Shown here piece by piece: positions 42,068 to 57,791 of a stretch of 64,000 nt of DNA. The notes below the pieces were generated by a model. That model searched no databases and was not told the DNA's origin. It was given only the letters and a program-made list of their open reading frames with translations. The position numbers were made by a program, and so were the translations under genes. Position 1 is the stretch's first letter. The number at the start of each line of letters is the position of its first letter. Source of the stretch: Hericium rajendrae (Eukaryota > Basidiomycota > Agaricomycetes > Russulales > Hericiaceae); the NCBI GenBank assembly GCA_033439255.1, contig CM065889.1, positions 682,001 through 746,000 of the forward strand. Direction: 5' to 3'.

Positions 42068-44797
42068 TCACAGCCTGGAGAGGTCCCTGCCCCACACGCC
42101 CCTACAAGACCAGTCAGCTCCCGTCACTTTCGGGAAAAAAAATTGGCACGCACCGCACAATCCAATCGATCATCAACAGCGCCCGCGTCCGCAGGCTGAC
42201 CTGCTCGCTCCAGTACACGCTGCGCCACGCATACATCGCGACCAGCCCGCCCATGAAGCTCATGCGCCCGAGGTCAAACACTGCCGCGTTGCCGATGTAC
42301 GCGAGCGAGCCGAGGTGCAGATAGCGGAAGGGGCCGGAGACGGCCTCGTCGAGGTCGGGGACCTCGTTTGCTTGGAGCACGGAGCGCTGCGAGGCGAGGC
42401 GCTGCAGCTTCTTGCCGAGGTATTTGCCCTGTTGCGAGGCGACTTGGGCGGTCTGTAGGCGGGAAGTCAGAAGGGGTTTGACGAGAATGAAAAGGGCGTA
42501 CGGCGGGCAAGGCGGTGATCTTATTGCCGATTTCTTGCAGGAGGACGGCGAGCTCGTTCAGCGTGAGGCTATTGTCCGCGTCCGAGTCGTAGAGGTCGAA
42601 GAGGGCGCGGACCTCCTGGAGCTGGGCCTCGGCCATCGGGATCTTTGTCTTGATGCGCTGCACTATAGACCAAGCGTCAGAGCTAGTTTACTCTAAAGGA
42701 TGGGTAGCGTGAGCCAACAACATACCCATGAACTCCCACTCATCGTAATCAATCCTGCCGTCCTTGTTGCGATCTGCTTCTTCGACAAGATCGAGGAGGT
42801 GGGCAACGACGGACGTTTCAATCTAAATGGCATGACCGTCAGTAGTAAGACGCGGAAAGGACGACAAGGGTCATACTGTCGCGCAATCACCAATCGCATA
42901 AACCTCGCCCAGGGGCGCGCCCTTCACGCGAAGCTGCGCGTCCACTTCAATAGCTTTCTTGTGCACTTGGTTAGGGAGTAGGCTCGATACCTAGAATGAC
43001 AATGGTGGTATTCGCGTCAGATTTGCAAATCCGCCAATTCGATAATTTTTTGACTCACACGGGCGGTGAAGGGGTTCATGGCGATACCAGTTGACCAAAG
43101 GACAAAATTCGACGGAATATCATGGGTGATGACTTCACCAGTACTCCGGTCCCTAGTAGTGTACGAGACACGATCCGGATGGACGGAATGTACCCTGGCG
43201 AGTTTTGCAAGTCAGTGACTGACATGAAACTTGAGATAAAGGGATCCGAACCGCGCAGAAGTGATGAGGCAAACTCCGTCACGCCTAAATTTATCTTCGG
43301 CATATCGAGAGATGGCTTCCGAATACTAATAGAATCATCTGTATAATGGTTCTAGTAAAGAACGAAAACAATTACGGTGTTCAATATGTGTTCTCGTGAT
43401 TGGATGACATGGATAGAGACGTCCTCGCGACATAATTTCGGGTACTGAAACCGAACCCACGTCAGTAACAAGATCGCATACAAATGAAATGCTACCAACG
43501 TAGTTAATGATATCTTCCTGGCAAAGGTCATAGATTTCCTGGCACAACAGAGTCAGTTTCAGGTGTGAACTACCATAATATCAAATAAGCTTACAGCAGC
43601 AGTCTCGACACCAGTCGGTCCACCACCACAAACAACAAAGCTGAGTAAACGTTTGCGTTCCTTGGGGTCTGTGGTCGGGAGCGATGCCACCTCGAAATTG
43701 TCTATGCACAAATCATTATTGAGTTCGGAAGTTGATATGCTAGACATACCTAAAATGCGACGACGAATTGCCTGCGCGTCCGCAACGGTCTTTAGCTGAT
43801 AACAGTTTTCAAGGCCAGGTACACCATGTGTGCTGGAGATAGAGCCGACAGCGAGCACGAGCTTGTCATACCTAAACGGCAAGGTGAGGAAACACCAAAC
43901 ACAGTACACGGTTGCACGCACGGAAGATAAAAGCGCGTGGTGCTGCCATCTGCATTGTGGGCCTCGAGCTCGACGAGGTGTTCGGACATGACGATATCGA
44001 TGGCTCTCGCGTTGATAAATTGGCCATGAAGACGTGCTATAATTTTGCGGAGAGGTTCGATTAGGGAGCGGATAGATACCGTGCCTACGGCGGCAGCTGT
44101 TCCGGGACAACCATAAAATTATGAGCAGCTTGACCATTTGGGAACTCGAATGAATTAGCAAAGAAAAACGTACAGGGCAACAGAGGCGTAAAGGTGTTGA
44201 AGGTGTCCGGAGAAACGACGGTCACGTGATAGTCGCCAGCGTGCAATTGTTCGATGACACCAACGGCCTTGACAAGGAAACGCAGGATGGACGCGGTCAA
44301 TATTGCTACATAGATACTGGATATGATGTACGCACTCCCCATCCGCCACCAATGATGACCAGGCGAGGCTTGTCCTTCAATTTCTTCGCTTCCTCATCCT
44401 CCAGATCGCCAACAAGCTCGACAGCTATGGGCAGATTCTTGGGACCACCATGTTCGGGATTAAGGGCTAGCGGTGATACAGGAACACGGTCGATATGAAG
44501 ATCTGTGTATGTGCAGGCATCATGTAAGAATATTCCACCGATGAGAAGTGTGACACCGAAAGCAGAAGAGAGGACAGCGATGGTGGTATACCGGACGACC
44601 GTGCGCAGGACGGATGTTAGCGGACGTCGTGGAGGCGGCGGTGTTGAGAAAAGTCTGTGCGGGGGTTGTCGGTTAAAAGGGATTGGGAATGCGCGAGCGA
44701 GAGTTGGAGAGCGGGTATTGATAGAAAGACGCGCGGATGGGCGTACATGACCTGCGAGGGCGAGTCTGGACATTATAGTCGGTGTCATGGCCACCAA
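42068..44797 (-). CDS. NDE1: Alternative (type II) NADH dehydrogenase with EF-hands, mitochondrial
   Basis: A rotenone-insensitive flavoprotein that passes electrons from NADH to ubiquinone without pumping protons. About 13 short exons on the minus strand. An Arg/Ser/Pro-rich presequence and one membrane segment ([20 protein letters not shown]) precede the FAD-binding [18 protein letters not shown] and the NAD-binding [20 protein letters not shown]. Other blocks are [56 protein letters not shown] and [13 protein letters not shown]. Between these and the C-terminus lie two EF-hand loops, [12 protein letters not shown] and [12 protein letters not shown], as in the calcium-dependent external enzyme of Neurospora. 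The last exon (42068-42101) gives [10 protein letters not shown], the membrane-anchoring end typical of the family. The start could be any of the Met codons at 44797, 44788 or 44773. All joins keep frame. Confidence 0.92.
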
Positions 44798-48319: not shown

Positions 48320-51300
48320 ATGGCTCAACGTCGCCCGCTGCACAGTAGACTCCAAACCGCCGCCTCTCCCTCCATTTCTACGCGACGGCGCTACAAACTT
48401 CGTCATCCACCTTCACTCGCTCGTGGATTTGCGCGCAGCATCGTGCGCAAGCTTCGACAACCATCGAACTCTACGCGTTCTCACACCTCAAACGCGTCGC
48501 TGCCTCCTTCCGACGACGACGCGGACGACGACTCCGAGACGGAAAGCCCTCGCCCCGCCCTTGCGCCCCTCCAGTTCAACCTAAGACGGCTACCGTCGCG
48601 TCTGGCGCTAGTAGATCGCAAGAGCATGCGAGTATCGAGTGATGCTGGAGATCATGGCGCAGTGCAGGTCGGCGCGAAACGGAAACGCGTCGTGAGTGGT
48701 ACGGAGAACGCGCATGGCAGCGCGAACGGTCGCGTGGCGCGCGCATCAAGCCGAGGCAGGTACAAGCGGCGTCGCGGGTCAGCGCGTAGCGTGACCAGTG
48801 AGGAGGATGGAGTGAGCGAGATGGACGTCGACGATCGCGTTAACAACCACTACCATACTAGGAGTTGGGACGATTCGGACGATGACGCGGATGACCTCAA
48901 TTCCTGTGAGTCTCGAGTCTTCAATGGCCTCCTTTTTCTATTGTTTCTGCGGGCATACTGACGTACAATTTAATGCGATAGCGGAAGATCACCTGATCAA
49001 CGAAGCGCCGCCTCGCCAACTCCTTCGCCTTCGCAAGGACGAGCTTATCAACCTATACCAGTCTGCTGGTCTGACAGAGGACGCAGAGACACTCACAAAA
49101 CAGGACCTCGTAGCCGCGATCGTCGCCGCACGCGACGATATCGCGGACTTACCCCCATCTTCGCCTCCCGGACGTGACGGCAACTCCAGCGAATGCTCCT
49201 CCGATGACGGTAACTATGCAGGCGGTGAGGAGACGGATGTTGGGGGTCGTTATGCGACGGCGGAAAATGGACTCAGGCGACGTGTTACCGTGCACGACAT
49301 GGGGAGGCCAAACGGGCGACTGCCGAAAGGTCGCAGTCTATCCTTGGGACAAATGGCTCCTTCATCGCCTACTGCTCTTTGCTGTCCGAAGAGAACAACT
49401 CGCATTGTTGCGCCGGCGCAAGCACCTGTTCGCGACAGCGGCGTTCTTATCACACGGTACGCGGTTGGTCTTGCTCTGTGACTTGGCTTGCCCTGATCAC
49501 CATATAGACGCCGAGCGGGGTCGACGCGGTCATCACCTACAACGTCCGTCGCTGCATCAAGCTCTCTTCCATCACCCCCCGCCACTCGCCTCCGCTCTCG
49601 TCAAGTTTCTGGCGATTCGACTCGTACGACCGGTTCGCCACACACCACGCGGAGCAAAGGCAAGGCAAAACAAGTTGAGTTCAGCGAGGACGTGCAGATT
49701 ACTACCCTTGAAGAGGGTGAAGAAAGTGAATTGACTCAGCTATCGGAATCCGATGAAGGCACAACGGTGTTTTCACCCAGTCCAAGACGGTTGCGGAGCC
49801 AAGGAGAGAAGGAGAACAGGGGGAGGCAACGTGGGCGGTCATCGCACGACGAACACAGCGCCAGTCCACCGTTGCGGTGTACGCCCAGGCGAAAGGCTAA
49901 AGACAGAGTCGGTTCTCTGAGGGAAGACGATGAGGATGAAGAGGAAGAAGTGCAAGAAGTCGCTGATGAGGATGAGGTTGACGAACTCATGTCGACAGCC
50001 TCCGCAACACCTCCACCTCCAGTAAGACGTACTCCGTTGAAACGTCGATTGCGACCAAGGCGCAACCAGTTATCTCCGCCTCCGAGTGATGGGGATGACG
50101 AGCAGGAGGACGAAGAGGAGGAGGTTTGAGGCGTGAGGAAGGCGACGACGACGAAGGCACGGTGGATGGGGAGATGCAAGAGGATGAGGAGGATGACGCG
50201 ACTCTGGTGGAACCAAGAAAACTGAGGAGTGGGAAGGTAGTTGGCGAGGAGGACATAGAGGAAGAAAGTGACGAAGTCGAAGAGGATCAGGATATACCGG
50301 TCGAAGAGGACATCGAACTTACGACAGAAGAAGAGTCCGACGAAAGCGCGGATCACGATTTCATTCCTGAGGCAATGGAAGATGGTCAGCACGGCTTCTA
50401 CCACGGCGAATATGATACTAATTTCTACTCAGTCGACTTGACCATCGCGACTGCCAAAAGTCTGGTCCGTTTACGCCGTGACGATCTCGTCCGTCTGTGT
50501 GAATCTCGAGACCTCGATATTGAAGGCACAAAGCCTCAATTGGCTGACTCCCTGTTACAATGGCGAGATCGCCAGACCGATGCCTCCTCACCATCCTCAA
50601 CTGGCACCGTACGGCCACCGTTGACTGCTAGACCCCGTGCAACACGTCGGAAAGGCAGCAAGAGCAAGAGCCGCACACCGCCGGTACTTATGCGCTCTCA
50701 TCACATCCATCAGGATGAGCCCAGGACACCGCCGATGTCGAATGGTCAGAAAGATGAGGAAGTCGAGCTTGACTTGGAGAGTCTTGGTCTGGAAGATCGT
50801 GAGATCCCTCCAAACAAGCTGACCAAGCTCGAGAAGATTGGGAGTGGCGGTTTCAAGGACGTCTTCACCGGCAAGTTTAAGGGCAGGAAAGTGGCCATTG
50901 CGGAGTTCAGAGGGCAGTTGAGCGAAAGTAAGCACCCTTAGCCCGTGCATTGCGCACGAATGGGGGACACTTCTTCCCACGTTGCATACTCATGCTGTCT
51001 CGCGCGTTAAGTGGACATCAAGGAACTAAAGCTTCTTGGAGGTTTTAACCATCCAAACATTGTCCGTTTCGTGCGTGTTATTTCTATCGTCGTGGCGTTC
51101 TTCCACTTATGTAATGGGACTCTGCAGCTTGGCGTAAGCATACCGGAAGACACACGGGTTACACCCGTCATGATCGTCAGCGAGCTGTGCTCGAACGGCG
51201 ACCTCTTCGATTATGTCCGCAATGTACCACCGCCATCGCTATATCGCGTCGTGCGTCTCTATTTTCTCACCTTACTGATTGTGCCTAATGTATCGTCTGC

Positions 51301-51940
51301 GCTCATCAGCTGTCCATCATGCTCGATATTGCTCGCGGATTGGAATACCTCCATATGCGGAAACCATCTGTCATACACAGGGACTGCAAGTCGTCCAATA
51401 TTCTCATCACCTCAAAGGGCGTTGCAAAGATTGCGGACTTTGGTCTTGCGAAAGTCAAGCAATCCACTCGGTCGATGGTCCGTAGCTTGGTCGGCACGGT
51501 AAACTGGCAGGCTCCAGAGCTGTGGCACGCCCATCCGAAGTATAACCATAAGGTCGACGTCTTCGCGGCTGGCATGGTATACTGGGAGATGCTTCAATGG
51601 CATCTACCAAACAAGAAATATCCTTGGGAGGTACGCATTAACAAAAGATGTCCTGCCTCAATGTTGTATCTGACGAGCTCGATGTAGGGTATGAATGAAC
51701 ATGCCATCTACGAGCTCGTAGGTGCAAAACGCCAACGGTATGTCAACATTTTTGCAATACGGCAAGGATATGGTCTCATTTGCCCCCCTGTCCAGACCTA
51801 GCGTATCCGGACTGCGAAAACAATGGTGTCCAGAGATTGTCGATCTCATGGAGCGAATGTGGGCGCAGGAGCATCAAGACAGACCAACTATGTCCGAGGT
51901 CGTCGCCGAGCTCGAAGTCCTCGTCCGCAAATTCCGCTAA
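48320..51940 (+). CDS. SAP-domain protein kinase with WNK-like lysine placement
   Basis: Exons are joined at 48905/48982, 49456/49508, 50937/51012, 51070/51128, 51250/51310, 51630/51688 and 51737/51796. The long N-terminal half is basic and acidic by turns, with two SAP-like helix-turn-helix motifs (QLLRLRKDELINLYQSAGL; LVRLRRDDLVRLCESRDL) that suggest DNA or chromatin binding. The kinase domain (about the last 330 residues) has glycine loop IGSGGFKDVFTG, HRDCKSSNILI, ADFGLAKV, WQAPELW, VDVFAAGMVYWEML and RPTMSEVVAELE, closest in look to TKL kinases. At the usual VAIK position the protein reads VAIAEF, so the ATP lysine is replaced by Ala; a Lys follows the Phe of the glycine loop instead. 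A one-base slip near 50123-50127 separates the acidic region from the second SAP part. The N-terminus is uncertain: a second frame at 48285-48500 also looks protein-like. Confidence 0.78.
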
Positions 51941-52436: not shown

Positions 52437-54696
52437 CTATTGGGAGAAAACGAAGTGGTTTTGTCGTTGAACTCCGTCTGTGATATGTGGAACTCGTCCG
52501 CAATCATCGTGAGGTTCGCATGGTTGAACTGCAAGATGCTTTGCAAGTATCGAAATAAGCAAGGGGGAGAATGAAAAGGAAAGGCAGGTAGTGCACCTCT
52601 TTAGATGGGGTGCAGGGTTCCCATTTTGGTCCTGCACAACGAGACGTATATGGATACCGTAGCTCGAATAAGTATATGAGACGGAGGACGCACGTTTCGA
52701 TCCCTTTCCATCGTTTGGGTCCAGCGACGTCGCGAATGAGATCCAATAGTCCATCATCTGCTCGCTCAGCTGGGGTGCGCCAGGGTTGCCAACGGGCGTT
52801 CCTCCAAAGACATACGGGAGTTCGCTGGCGTGCGTAACTGCATGAGGTAAGGTAAATTAGATCCTGATTCAGCTAATCAATGCACGCTCACGCACTCCCA
52901 ATCTGCGGCGGATTCTCAGGTTGCGGGTCCGTGAACATGTAGTTGTACACCAGCGCACCCCTTGCAGCAGCCGCGCGTCCATACCACCGACGCAATGAGA
53001 GGAAACCAAGATCGGTCACTGTGAATGTGAGAAAACGATGGGATGATGTATGAAACCTATCGCGAGACGGACTGACCGAAAGCCGCGGTGCGTTTGTACT
53101 CGGGATCGAGCCCGAAGGTGTTGTTGCCTGTGAAATAAGGACAGCCGTCGGCGGGATCATCTGGATACTGGGCTATTGTGTTCTGGACGGCTTTTGCAGT
53201 GCGCTGGCTCCCGCCGGTGACGGGGAGAAAAGTGAGATGCCAAACGCCTCTGCCCCAGTTACGCCTACCAAAGTCTGTGGCGTGAATGATGTGCCTACAC
53301 AAAGCATATATTCAGGTCAGCAACAGCCTGACAGCCTGATTATAGACAGCATACCCTCGTCGAGAACAGTACCAGACAAGAAGGGGAGCTTGCCACCGGC
53401 ACCGCTGGCAACCCGTTTGGTTGGATAGTCGGAAATAAGCCCACCAGGTCCGTCCAACACTGGGGTAAATGGGAACTCTCGATCAGACACGGCCGATAGT
53501 GCGTTGACAATATCTGTCACGTTCGCGCTACGCAAACAATTTAAGGTATTGCTTGCCGAGAAGGTGGGAGAAGATGCACATGCAGTAGTCGCATTGGCGA
53601 ACTCGAGCCACGTCGACTGAAGACTGGATGCATGGAACAGCGGCAGAGAGCTTCCCCAACCAGATTGAAATATCTACATATAAGAAAATTACAACCAGGA
53701 TTAGCCTGAGTATCATATTATGATGATAACACATTATAGCTTACTGCTGCACGAGCCAAAGAAGACAAGTCATTCAAATAGTGGTGCGAGACCGACATGG
53801 AACCGGCGCTATGTCCAAATACAGTCACCTATCCGCAGAAACGAACAATCAACTCCAGATTCACTGGTCACAAGTGGCACCCACCTTTTTTGGATCTCCA
53901 CCAAATGCATGGATGTTGGCGTGCACCCATTTCAAAGCAAGCAGCTGATCATGCAGGCCGAGATTGAGCAGACAATTTTTCGCTGCTTCATCTCCTAAAG
54001 GAAATCCAAGCGGTCCGAGGCGATAATTCAGCGAGACGAAGACGATAGGCGTGCCCTTTCAATGAATAAGATTCTCAGAATGGAGTAGACAACCGAAAAC
54101 GACACACTCGGGCTATGGATCGTGAAACAAGACCAGTACCATTCATTATCGAGCTTTGGCCAGCTGCAAGAGACGATCAATCAGGTGGGCACGAAGAGAA
54201 GACACTACAAACATACCGACAAATCCGCCTCCGTAGATATAGACCATCACCGGCAGCTCAGATTTGCTGACACACCCGCAGGGCGGAAGACATTCAAGGT
54301 CAAACAGTCTTCTGAGATTTCAGAGAAAGGAAGTCCCTATGCATCATGTGTACGTGGGAGCACAATACATATGCCAGTTCATGAACTCACAGCTTGGACG
54401 CACGACGCGCTGAAATTCGTTGCCGAAAATGACGGACCGTCCAGAGTGAATTTCGCAATGGGCGGCTTGAAACGAAGGTTTTCCACTGGTGGTGATGCAA
54501 ACGGTATTCCTGTCCAGGTTTGTGAATGACCAGCGCCTAGCTCATTTCGTGACAAGTACTTACCTCCAAAGAACTCTTGTTTGAATTGAGGAGAGTCCAG
54601 CCCAATGATCTTAGTCCTCCCTAGCGTCACGTCCGCGGCCAATGCATACAAGAAAGAGGCTGGGAGAAGCGTCCATAGTCCTACCAGGCGCACCAT
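52437..54696 (-). CDS. Type-B carboxylesterase/lipase, tandem copy 1
   Basis: Secreted alpha/beta hydrolase of the cholinesterase family. [20 protein letters not shown] is a signal peptide, followed by the mature start [20 protein letters not shown] and [16 protein letters not shown], the usual entry block. The nucleophile elbow is [17 protein letters not shown] (Ser in GHSAGS). Downstream are [38 protein letters not shown] and the active-site His region, then [18 protein letters not shown]. It ends HFVFSQ. Many small exons. It differs from copy 2 by one missing base near 53189-53191 (AAGCC where copy 2 has AAGGC), which breaks the frame after [10 protein letters not shown]; this may be a consensus error or the start of decay. 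Substrates of such fungal enzymes range from lipids to phenolic esters; nothing here decides. Confidence 0.8.

Positions 54697-55527: not shown

Positions 55528-57791
<2,264 letters not shown>

Follow-up and report, generated by a model that had tools for sequence, protein, structure and literature searches.

Can a protein kinase that has lost the lysine of its VAIK motif remain active with a lysine placed elsewhere at the adenosine triphosphate (ATP) site? The question is raised by a gene of Hericium rajendrae, found in a 64,000-nucleotide stretch of contig CM065889.1 (positions 682,001 to 746,000 of the forward strand; hereafter the window). The gene, at 48320..51940 on the plus strand, encodes a kinase with SAP motifs in which alanine occupies the usual beta-3 lysine site and a lysine directly follows the phenylalanine of the glycine loop, the position at which WNK kinases carry theirs. 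On the strength of sequence comparisons, the protein is likely a TKL-group Ser/Thr kinase that is active, probably nuclear, and widespread in Basidiomycota, with a WNK-type relocated lysine.

The lysine of the glycine loop and its conservation

The kinase domain, of TKL type, extends with its introns over 50816..51940 (Pfam PK_Tyr_Ser-Thr, 160 bits; PDB neighbours including CTR1, DLK, ZAK, TNNI3K, and BRAF); this and all other coordinates in this paragraph refer to the plus strand. Removal of five GT-AG introns yielded a kinase of 269 amino acids. The best listed relative, P0121 of Hericium alpestre (98% identity over the searched region, i.e., the second SAP motif and the kinase), differed from the spliced kinase by three residues in the alignment, and because of this near identity the frame and the splicing were considered correct. 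Glycine loop and beta-3 strand lie in a single open exon, where the window reads IGSGGFKDVFTGKFKGRKVAIAEFRGQ. The glycine loop, GSGGFKDVFTG (50840..50872), contains the lysine (codon AAG, 50855..50857) at PKA position 55, which aligns with WNK1 K233, whereas the beta-3 strand, KVAIAEFR, has alanine (codon GCG, 50900..50902) at the VAIK lysine site, which aligns with PKA K72 and WNK1 C250. The initial annotation had proposed this substitution and the equivalence to the WNK position, and both were borne out by the window reading, the splicing, the alignment, and the relatives. The motifs that it had described as intact, namely HRDCKSSN (HRD at 51376..51384), DFG (51436..51444, with its Phe at the position of L369 in the DLG of WNK1), and APE (51511..51519, just past the end of the interval first annotated), were all recovered in the spliced kinase, as was the alpha-C glutamate of DIKELKLL (51023..51025; PKA E91, WNK1 E268), 13 residues past the beta-3 site.

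Relatives were collected with the kinase as query (3094 proteins found), with the full model (region 640-1036; 2987 found), and in a further search confined to proteins of 1103 to 3508 residues (459 found); the best 120 were listed each time, and the counts given here refer to these listed matches. Among the 240 proteins of the first two listings, both sites were readable in 183, and 181 of these carried the loop lysine; the other 57 mostly lacked the N-lobe. The size-limited search added 68 new family members (P0241-P0308), every one with the loop lysine. In total, listed relatives with both sites readable had the loop lysine in 249 of 251 cases and a residue other than lysine at beta-3 in 251 of 251, i.e., the two features are conserved jointly. 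Both loop exceptions look like gene-model faults, the lysine of P0097 standing before an apparent read-through intron and the start of P0049 being apparently misplaced. Orthologues retaining the VAIK lysine were specifically looked for, and none was found among the 262 listed relatives readable at beta-3, which had Ala (160), Ser (69), Cys (30), or Gly (3). A regular expression run over P0001-P0308 matched 247 of 308 proteins and read lysine in 245, having misread P0026 and P0028, whose printed loops do show it. DFG was kept in 240/240 listed relatives, whose catalytic loops likewise all retained R, D, K, and N, and the alpha-C glutamate was present in 62/62 aligned rows. Since listed relatives carry the same combination of loop lysine and non-lysine beta-3 residue, a sequencing error or local mutation was ruled out. 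Diverged paralogues in Favolaschia (P0101, P0106) and Mycena (P0059), at 52–60% identity, also kept the loop lysine and a small beta-3 residue.

All family members with an organism name were Basidiomycota among the matches listed, some members being without a name. The named ones included many Agaricomycetes as well as Calocera, Tremella, Kwoniella, Phaffia, Rhodotorula, Mixia, Melampsora, Puccinia, Ustilago, Sporisorium, and Malassezia. In the size-limited listing, identity dropped from at least 54% within the family to at most 37% for plant, amoeba, algal, oomycete, animal, and other kinases, and no other named fungus appeared below the family among its best 120 of 459 proteins. The initial annotation could not place the combination in a named family; this did not hold, as several members are labelled TKL/TKL-ccin kinase in the database. 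One of these, the closely related Coprinopsis cinerea P0223, carries the loop lysine and Ser at beta-3, so that at least some of the kinases labelled TKL/TKL-ccin belong to the family. The literature, in its accessible passages, uses the name without mention of the lysine, and a search of open-licence full texts found no paper stating that the lysine is missing from these fungal kinases. The family is therefore already in databases, partly as TKL/TKL-ccin; what would be new is WNK-like chemistry on a TKL kinase.

Kinases outside the family behaved differently. In the tree set, 21/21 rows outside the family and WNK combined Gly, Ser, or Ala at the loop position with a beta-3 lysine, and WNK1 and mouse WNK2 had a loop lysine and beta-3 Cys. 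A loop lysine was found in 0/49 other readable kinase stretches of the size-limited search (WNK apart), 43 of which had the beta-3 lysine. In the H. rajendrae genome itself (46.8 Mb, 19 contigs), 17 other kinase N-lobes were recognised by eye, none with a loop lysine and 16 with the beta-3 lysine, the remaining one (L026) being apparently cut by an intron. A degenerate search of this genome for GxGx(F/Y)K revealed no surplus of such loops, since 24 matches, including that of the window, were obtained vs. 47 in the control. The exon-by-exon search of the genome gave no second close copy of the kinase; matches elsewhere were 26–37% identical over N-lobe and catalytic loop, and up to 48% over shorter C-lobe pieces.

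Predicted ATP site, chloride pocket, and SAP motifs

In the predicted model of the Stereum relative P0001, strand beta-2 begins at the loop lysine (K195), beta-3 covers the substituted site, and a helix at 218-228 contains E223; blockwise predicted local distance difference test (pLDDT) values were 90–96 at the loop and beta-3 and 75–80 around helix C. We infer that the ATP-positioning lysine, usually on beta-3 (PKA 72), has been relocated so that it directly follows the phenylalanine of the glycine loop (PKA 55). From beta-2 it would reach the ATP site above the vacated position, now taken by a small residue (Ala, Ser, Cys, or Gly), and, as in WNK, it would pair with the alpha-C glutamate. 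In WNK1, catalysis depends on the corresponding lysine, at position 55, whose interaction with ATP resembles that of PKA K72, according to the accessible text of a 2007 kinome survey (PMC1821047).

The likeness to WNK would not extend to chloride sensing. As described in the available portion of a WNK1 study, chloride is bound by backbone atoms of G370 and L371, surrounded by F283, L299, L369, and L371; there, L369F is described as activating, and a possible overlap between the chloride site and the usual lysine position is noted (PMC7606576). At the positions of F283, L299, L369, and L371, listed relatives had Phe (202/204), Ile (192/217), Phe (240/240), and Leu (240/240), respectively. As aligned, the family residue at the L369 site is exactly that of the chloride-insensitive WNK1 L369F. 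Because the DFG phenylalanine is kept, a WNK-type chloride pocket should be blocked and the enzyme should escape inhibition by chloride.

The segment between beta-3 and helix C is also unusual. Between the beta-3 site and the alpha-C glutamate, the spacing was 13 residues in 247/247 matched relatives vs. 18 in WNK1 and CTR1 and 17–23 in the other kinases compared, except for DLK (9) and a kinase of the same genome with a large insert (38). WNK1 and CTR1 thus have approximately five residues more in the beta3-alphaC loop than the window kinase (50903-51022, including an intron), whose short loop may fix helix C in an active position. Activating deletions in BRAF usually remove five beta3-alphaC residues, according to the accessible part of one report (PMC11804575). 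The BRAF deletion mutants in PDB (5hi2, 5hid, 5hie) resemble the family in their shortened loop but are mutants of a canonical kinase; 5hi2 was the best-scoring BRAF chain in the PDB neighbour searches.

Two SAP motifs had been annotated upstream of the kinase, and they fared unequally. The second (SAP2, 50468..50563, plus strand) matched Pfam SAP with 17.5 bits, below the cut-off of 23.9, and exceeded the cut-off in two of nine relatives scanned (P0024, P0029); in the Stereum model (residues 51-90), its block pLDDT was 94–97. A SAP match at E ≤ 0.1 was obtained in 28/35 orthologues. The first (SAP1, 49005..49139, plus strand) gave no Pfam SAP match in the window, where a Rho_N match remained below the cut-off, and is upheld by conservation and local helix prediction: it was recognisable by eye in most of the 35 full-length orthologues, hardly so in P0264 and P0299, and in the P0121 model it forms helices at 206-210, 214-223, and 235-250 (block pLDDT 86–95). 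Mean pLDDT of this full-length model was 46.6, with a poor kinase N-lobe, and both SAP motifs were among its confident parts; when this model was used in fold searches, the matches listed covered the kinase alone. Within an N-terminal part that is acidic and largely disordered, the two motifs would tether the kinase to DNA or chromatin, from which we infer a nuclear role. A Laccaria TKL-ccin kinase (299583), a possible counterpart of the window gene, is given, in the accessible portion of a yeast screen, as an activator with nuclear localization, false positives being expected by its authors (PMC5604158). Another possible counterpart is Coprinopsis CC1G_05652, called TKL-ccin in the available text of another study (PMC4082614).

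Placement among kinases and rival readings

By sequence, fold, and tree, the group is TKL. CTR1, DLK/MAP3K12, ZAK/MLT, TNNI3K, and RAF are among its best neighbours by these criteria, and the TKL-typical tryptophans and RP motif are conserved in the family. The TKL rows of the tree differ from it in that they keep the beta-3 lysine and have Gly, Ser, or Ala at the loop position. Trees computed without the two trait columns placed the family inside TKL and WNK outside (support 97/92 and 98/95). In both, the family joined TKL/TK, with STE, CAMK, and WNK outside this group; the reference set was small, its branches were long, and it had only two WNKs. At 26 positions that differ between TKL and WNK, the family was TKL-like at 18 and WNK-like at two. 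WNK was absent among the neighbours listed in two of the searches, which excludes nothing. The convergence in a TKL-like branch suggested by the initial annotation was upheld as regards TKL, and for the lysine itself an origin independent of WNK is favoured over common ancestry. The family was not filed as WNK because the defining DLG is replaced by DFG in 240/240 listed relatives. FslK, a fungal lineage near the tyrosine kinases, was set apart by distribution alone: it is reported lost in Pucciniomycotina and Ustilaginomycotina (PMC3937382), and the family of the window kinase is present in both.

Several observations weigh against an active, nuclear TKL kinase with an independently relocated lysine. 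The approximately unbiased (AU) test did not reject a joint clade with WNK (p values of 0.359 and 0.34, with only two WNKs in the set). The kinase-only profile scored WNK1 at 140 bits vs. 159 for CTR1 and 153 for DLK, and the A1 profile gave WNK1 142–147 bits, beside BRAF; since WNK1 scores so close to CTR1, DLK, and BRAF, the preference for TKL is moderate. Six of the 49 other kinase stretches had neither beta-3 lysine nor loop lysine, so that loss of the beta-3 lysine alone does occur; they belong to plant or unnamed multi-domain proteins, and some are perhaps misaligned. The beta3-alphaC stretch of DLK is likewise short (9, with Asp at the Glu column). Lastly, the nuclear role depends on low SAP scores and on a Laccaria screen match not tied to this gene. 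Among the plant or unnamed proteins without either lysine, P0314, P0315, P0318, P0320, and P0333 represent pseudokinase domains or misalignment.

The AU values bear most directly on the possibility that these kinases are a fungal offshoot of WNK that has diverged strongly, with a lysine inherited rather than convergent. The identical position of the lysine, the beta-3 Cys that 30 of the 262 readable listed members share with WNK1, and Tyr213 of the kinase (GMNEHAIYELVG), which is common to the family and WNK and absent from all 16 TKL rows, would fit such a descent. Inheritance is nevertheless improbable in view of both trees, of the 18 vs. two discriminating positions, of DFG in place of DLG, and of the window motifs HRDCKSSN and GTVNWQAPE, which read HRDLKCDN and GTPEFMAPE in WNK1. 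Far less probable still is a pseudokinase that simply lost its beta-3 lysine and carries an incidental lysine in the loop. Absence of the canonical lysine is the usual sign of a pseudokinase, and the six stretches mentioned above illustrate such a loss; here, however, the other catalytic residues are invariant in 240/240 listed relatives, for which reason decay was judged unlikely, the loop lysine varies hardly more than these, and only small residues occupy the lost site. Very little also speaks for replacement of the lysine by another basic residue, the invariant arginine three positions after the beta-3 site (VAIAEFR), with some other role for the loop lysine. This arginine is present in 62/62 rows, and WNK1 has Gln there; yet residues alternate sides along a strand, so that three positions on it would point to the opposite face, and for the loop position WNK provides a proven precedent. 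A TKL kinase with an independently relocated lysine thus remains the preferred reading.

Gene surroundings and wider meaning

The whole gene (plus strand) was modelled as exons 48320-48905, 48982-49456, 49508-50123, 50192-50927, 51012-51070, 51128-51250, 51310-51630, 51688-51737, and 51796-51940, encoding approximately 1,036 amino acids. Besides the five introns within the kinase, two clear introns lie upstream, all GT-AG. The spliced model matches P0121 except near an acidic low-complexity repeat at 50088-50191, where the frame changes and a stop occurs at 50127-50129; P0121 is continuous there and reads through. The junction 50124-50191 is a guess, and the frame change may reflect an unusual intron, an indel, or an assembly error.

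Upstream of the kinase, on the minus strand, lies a Pyr_redox_2 exon (NADH dehydrogenase-like, 43559-44221). The Astraeus odoratus prediction P0143 joins the kinase with Pyr_redox and EF-hand domains, and because it carries both, the linkage of kinase and Pyr_redox may be old. Carboxylesterase exons (52437-53673, minus) follow downstream, and a stretch at 55645-56445 (minus) that resembles them by eye and has no Pfam match is possibly a duplicated, decayed copy. A Pfam CLP1 exon near 40.2 kb and glutamyl/glutaminyl-tRNA synthetase exons at 58.6–60.0 kb (minus) have no bearing on the kinase.

Among known systems, WNK resembles the family in the lysine right after the glycine-loop phenylalanine, the small beta-3 residue, and the intact HRD and alpha-C glutamate. 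It differs in DLG vs. DFG and in spacing (18 in WNK1 vs. 13), whereas SAP motifs and a restriction of named members to Basidiomycota, among the matches listed, are particular to the family. The CAK-chloro kinase-like family has also moved the positive charge from position 72 to 55, there as Arg, but lies outside the eukaryotic protein kinases, as stated in the accessible passages of the 2007 survey; the same passages state that, of the functional families of eukaryotic protein kinases, WNK alone lacks the beta-3 lysine (PMC1821047). We consider it fairly probable that a second functional family of this kind exists across the sampled Basidiomycota, a SAP-tethered chromatin kinase that arose by independent WNK-type relocation within TKL, that lacks the chloride pocket, and whose beta3-alphaC loop is shortened.

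If so, nature would have separated the relocated lysine from chloride sensing, and a second, TKL-based family would imply that the move of the lysine is repeatable at the same position. It would also become testable whether relocation alone permits anion sensing, which the DFG phenylalanine of this family predicts it does not. For the annotation of fungal kinases, the finding suggests that filters equating absence of the VAIK lysine with a pseudokinase would misclassify this kinase, which occurs in mushrooms, rusts, smuts, and Malassezia.
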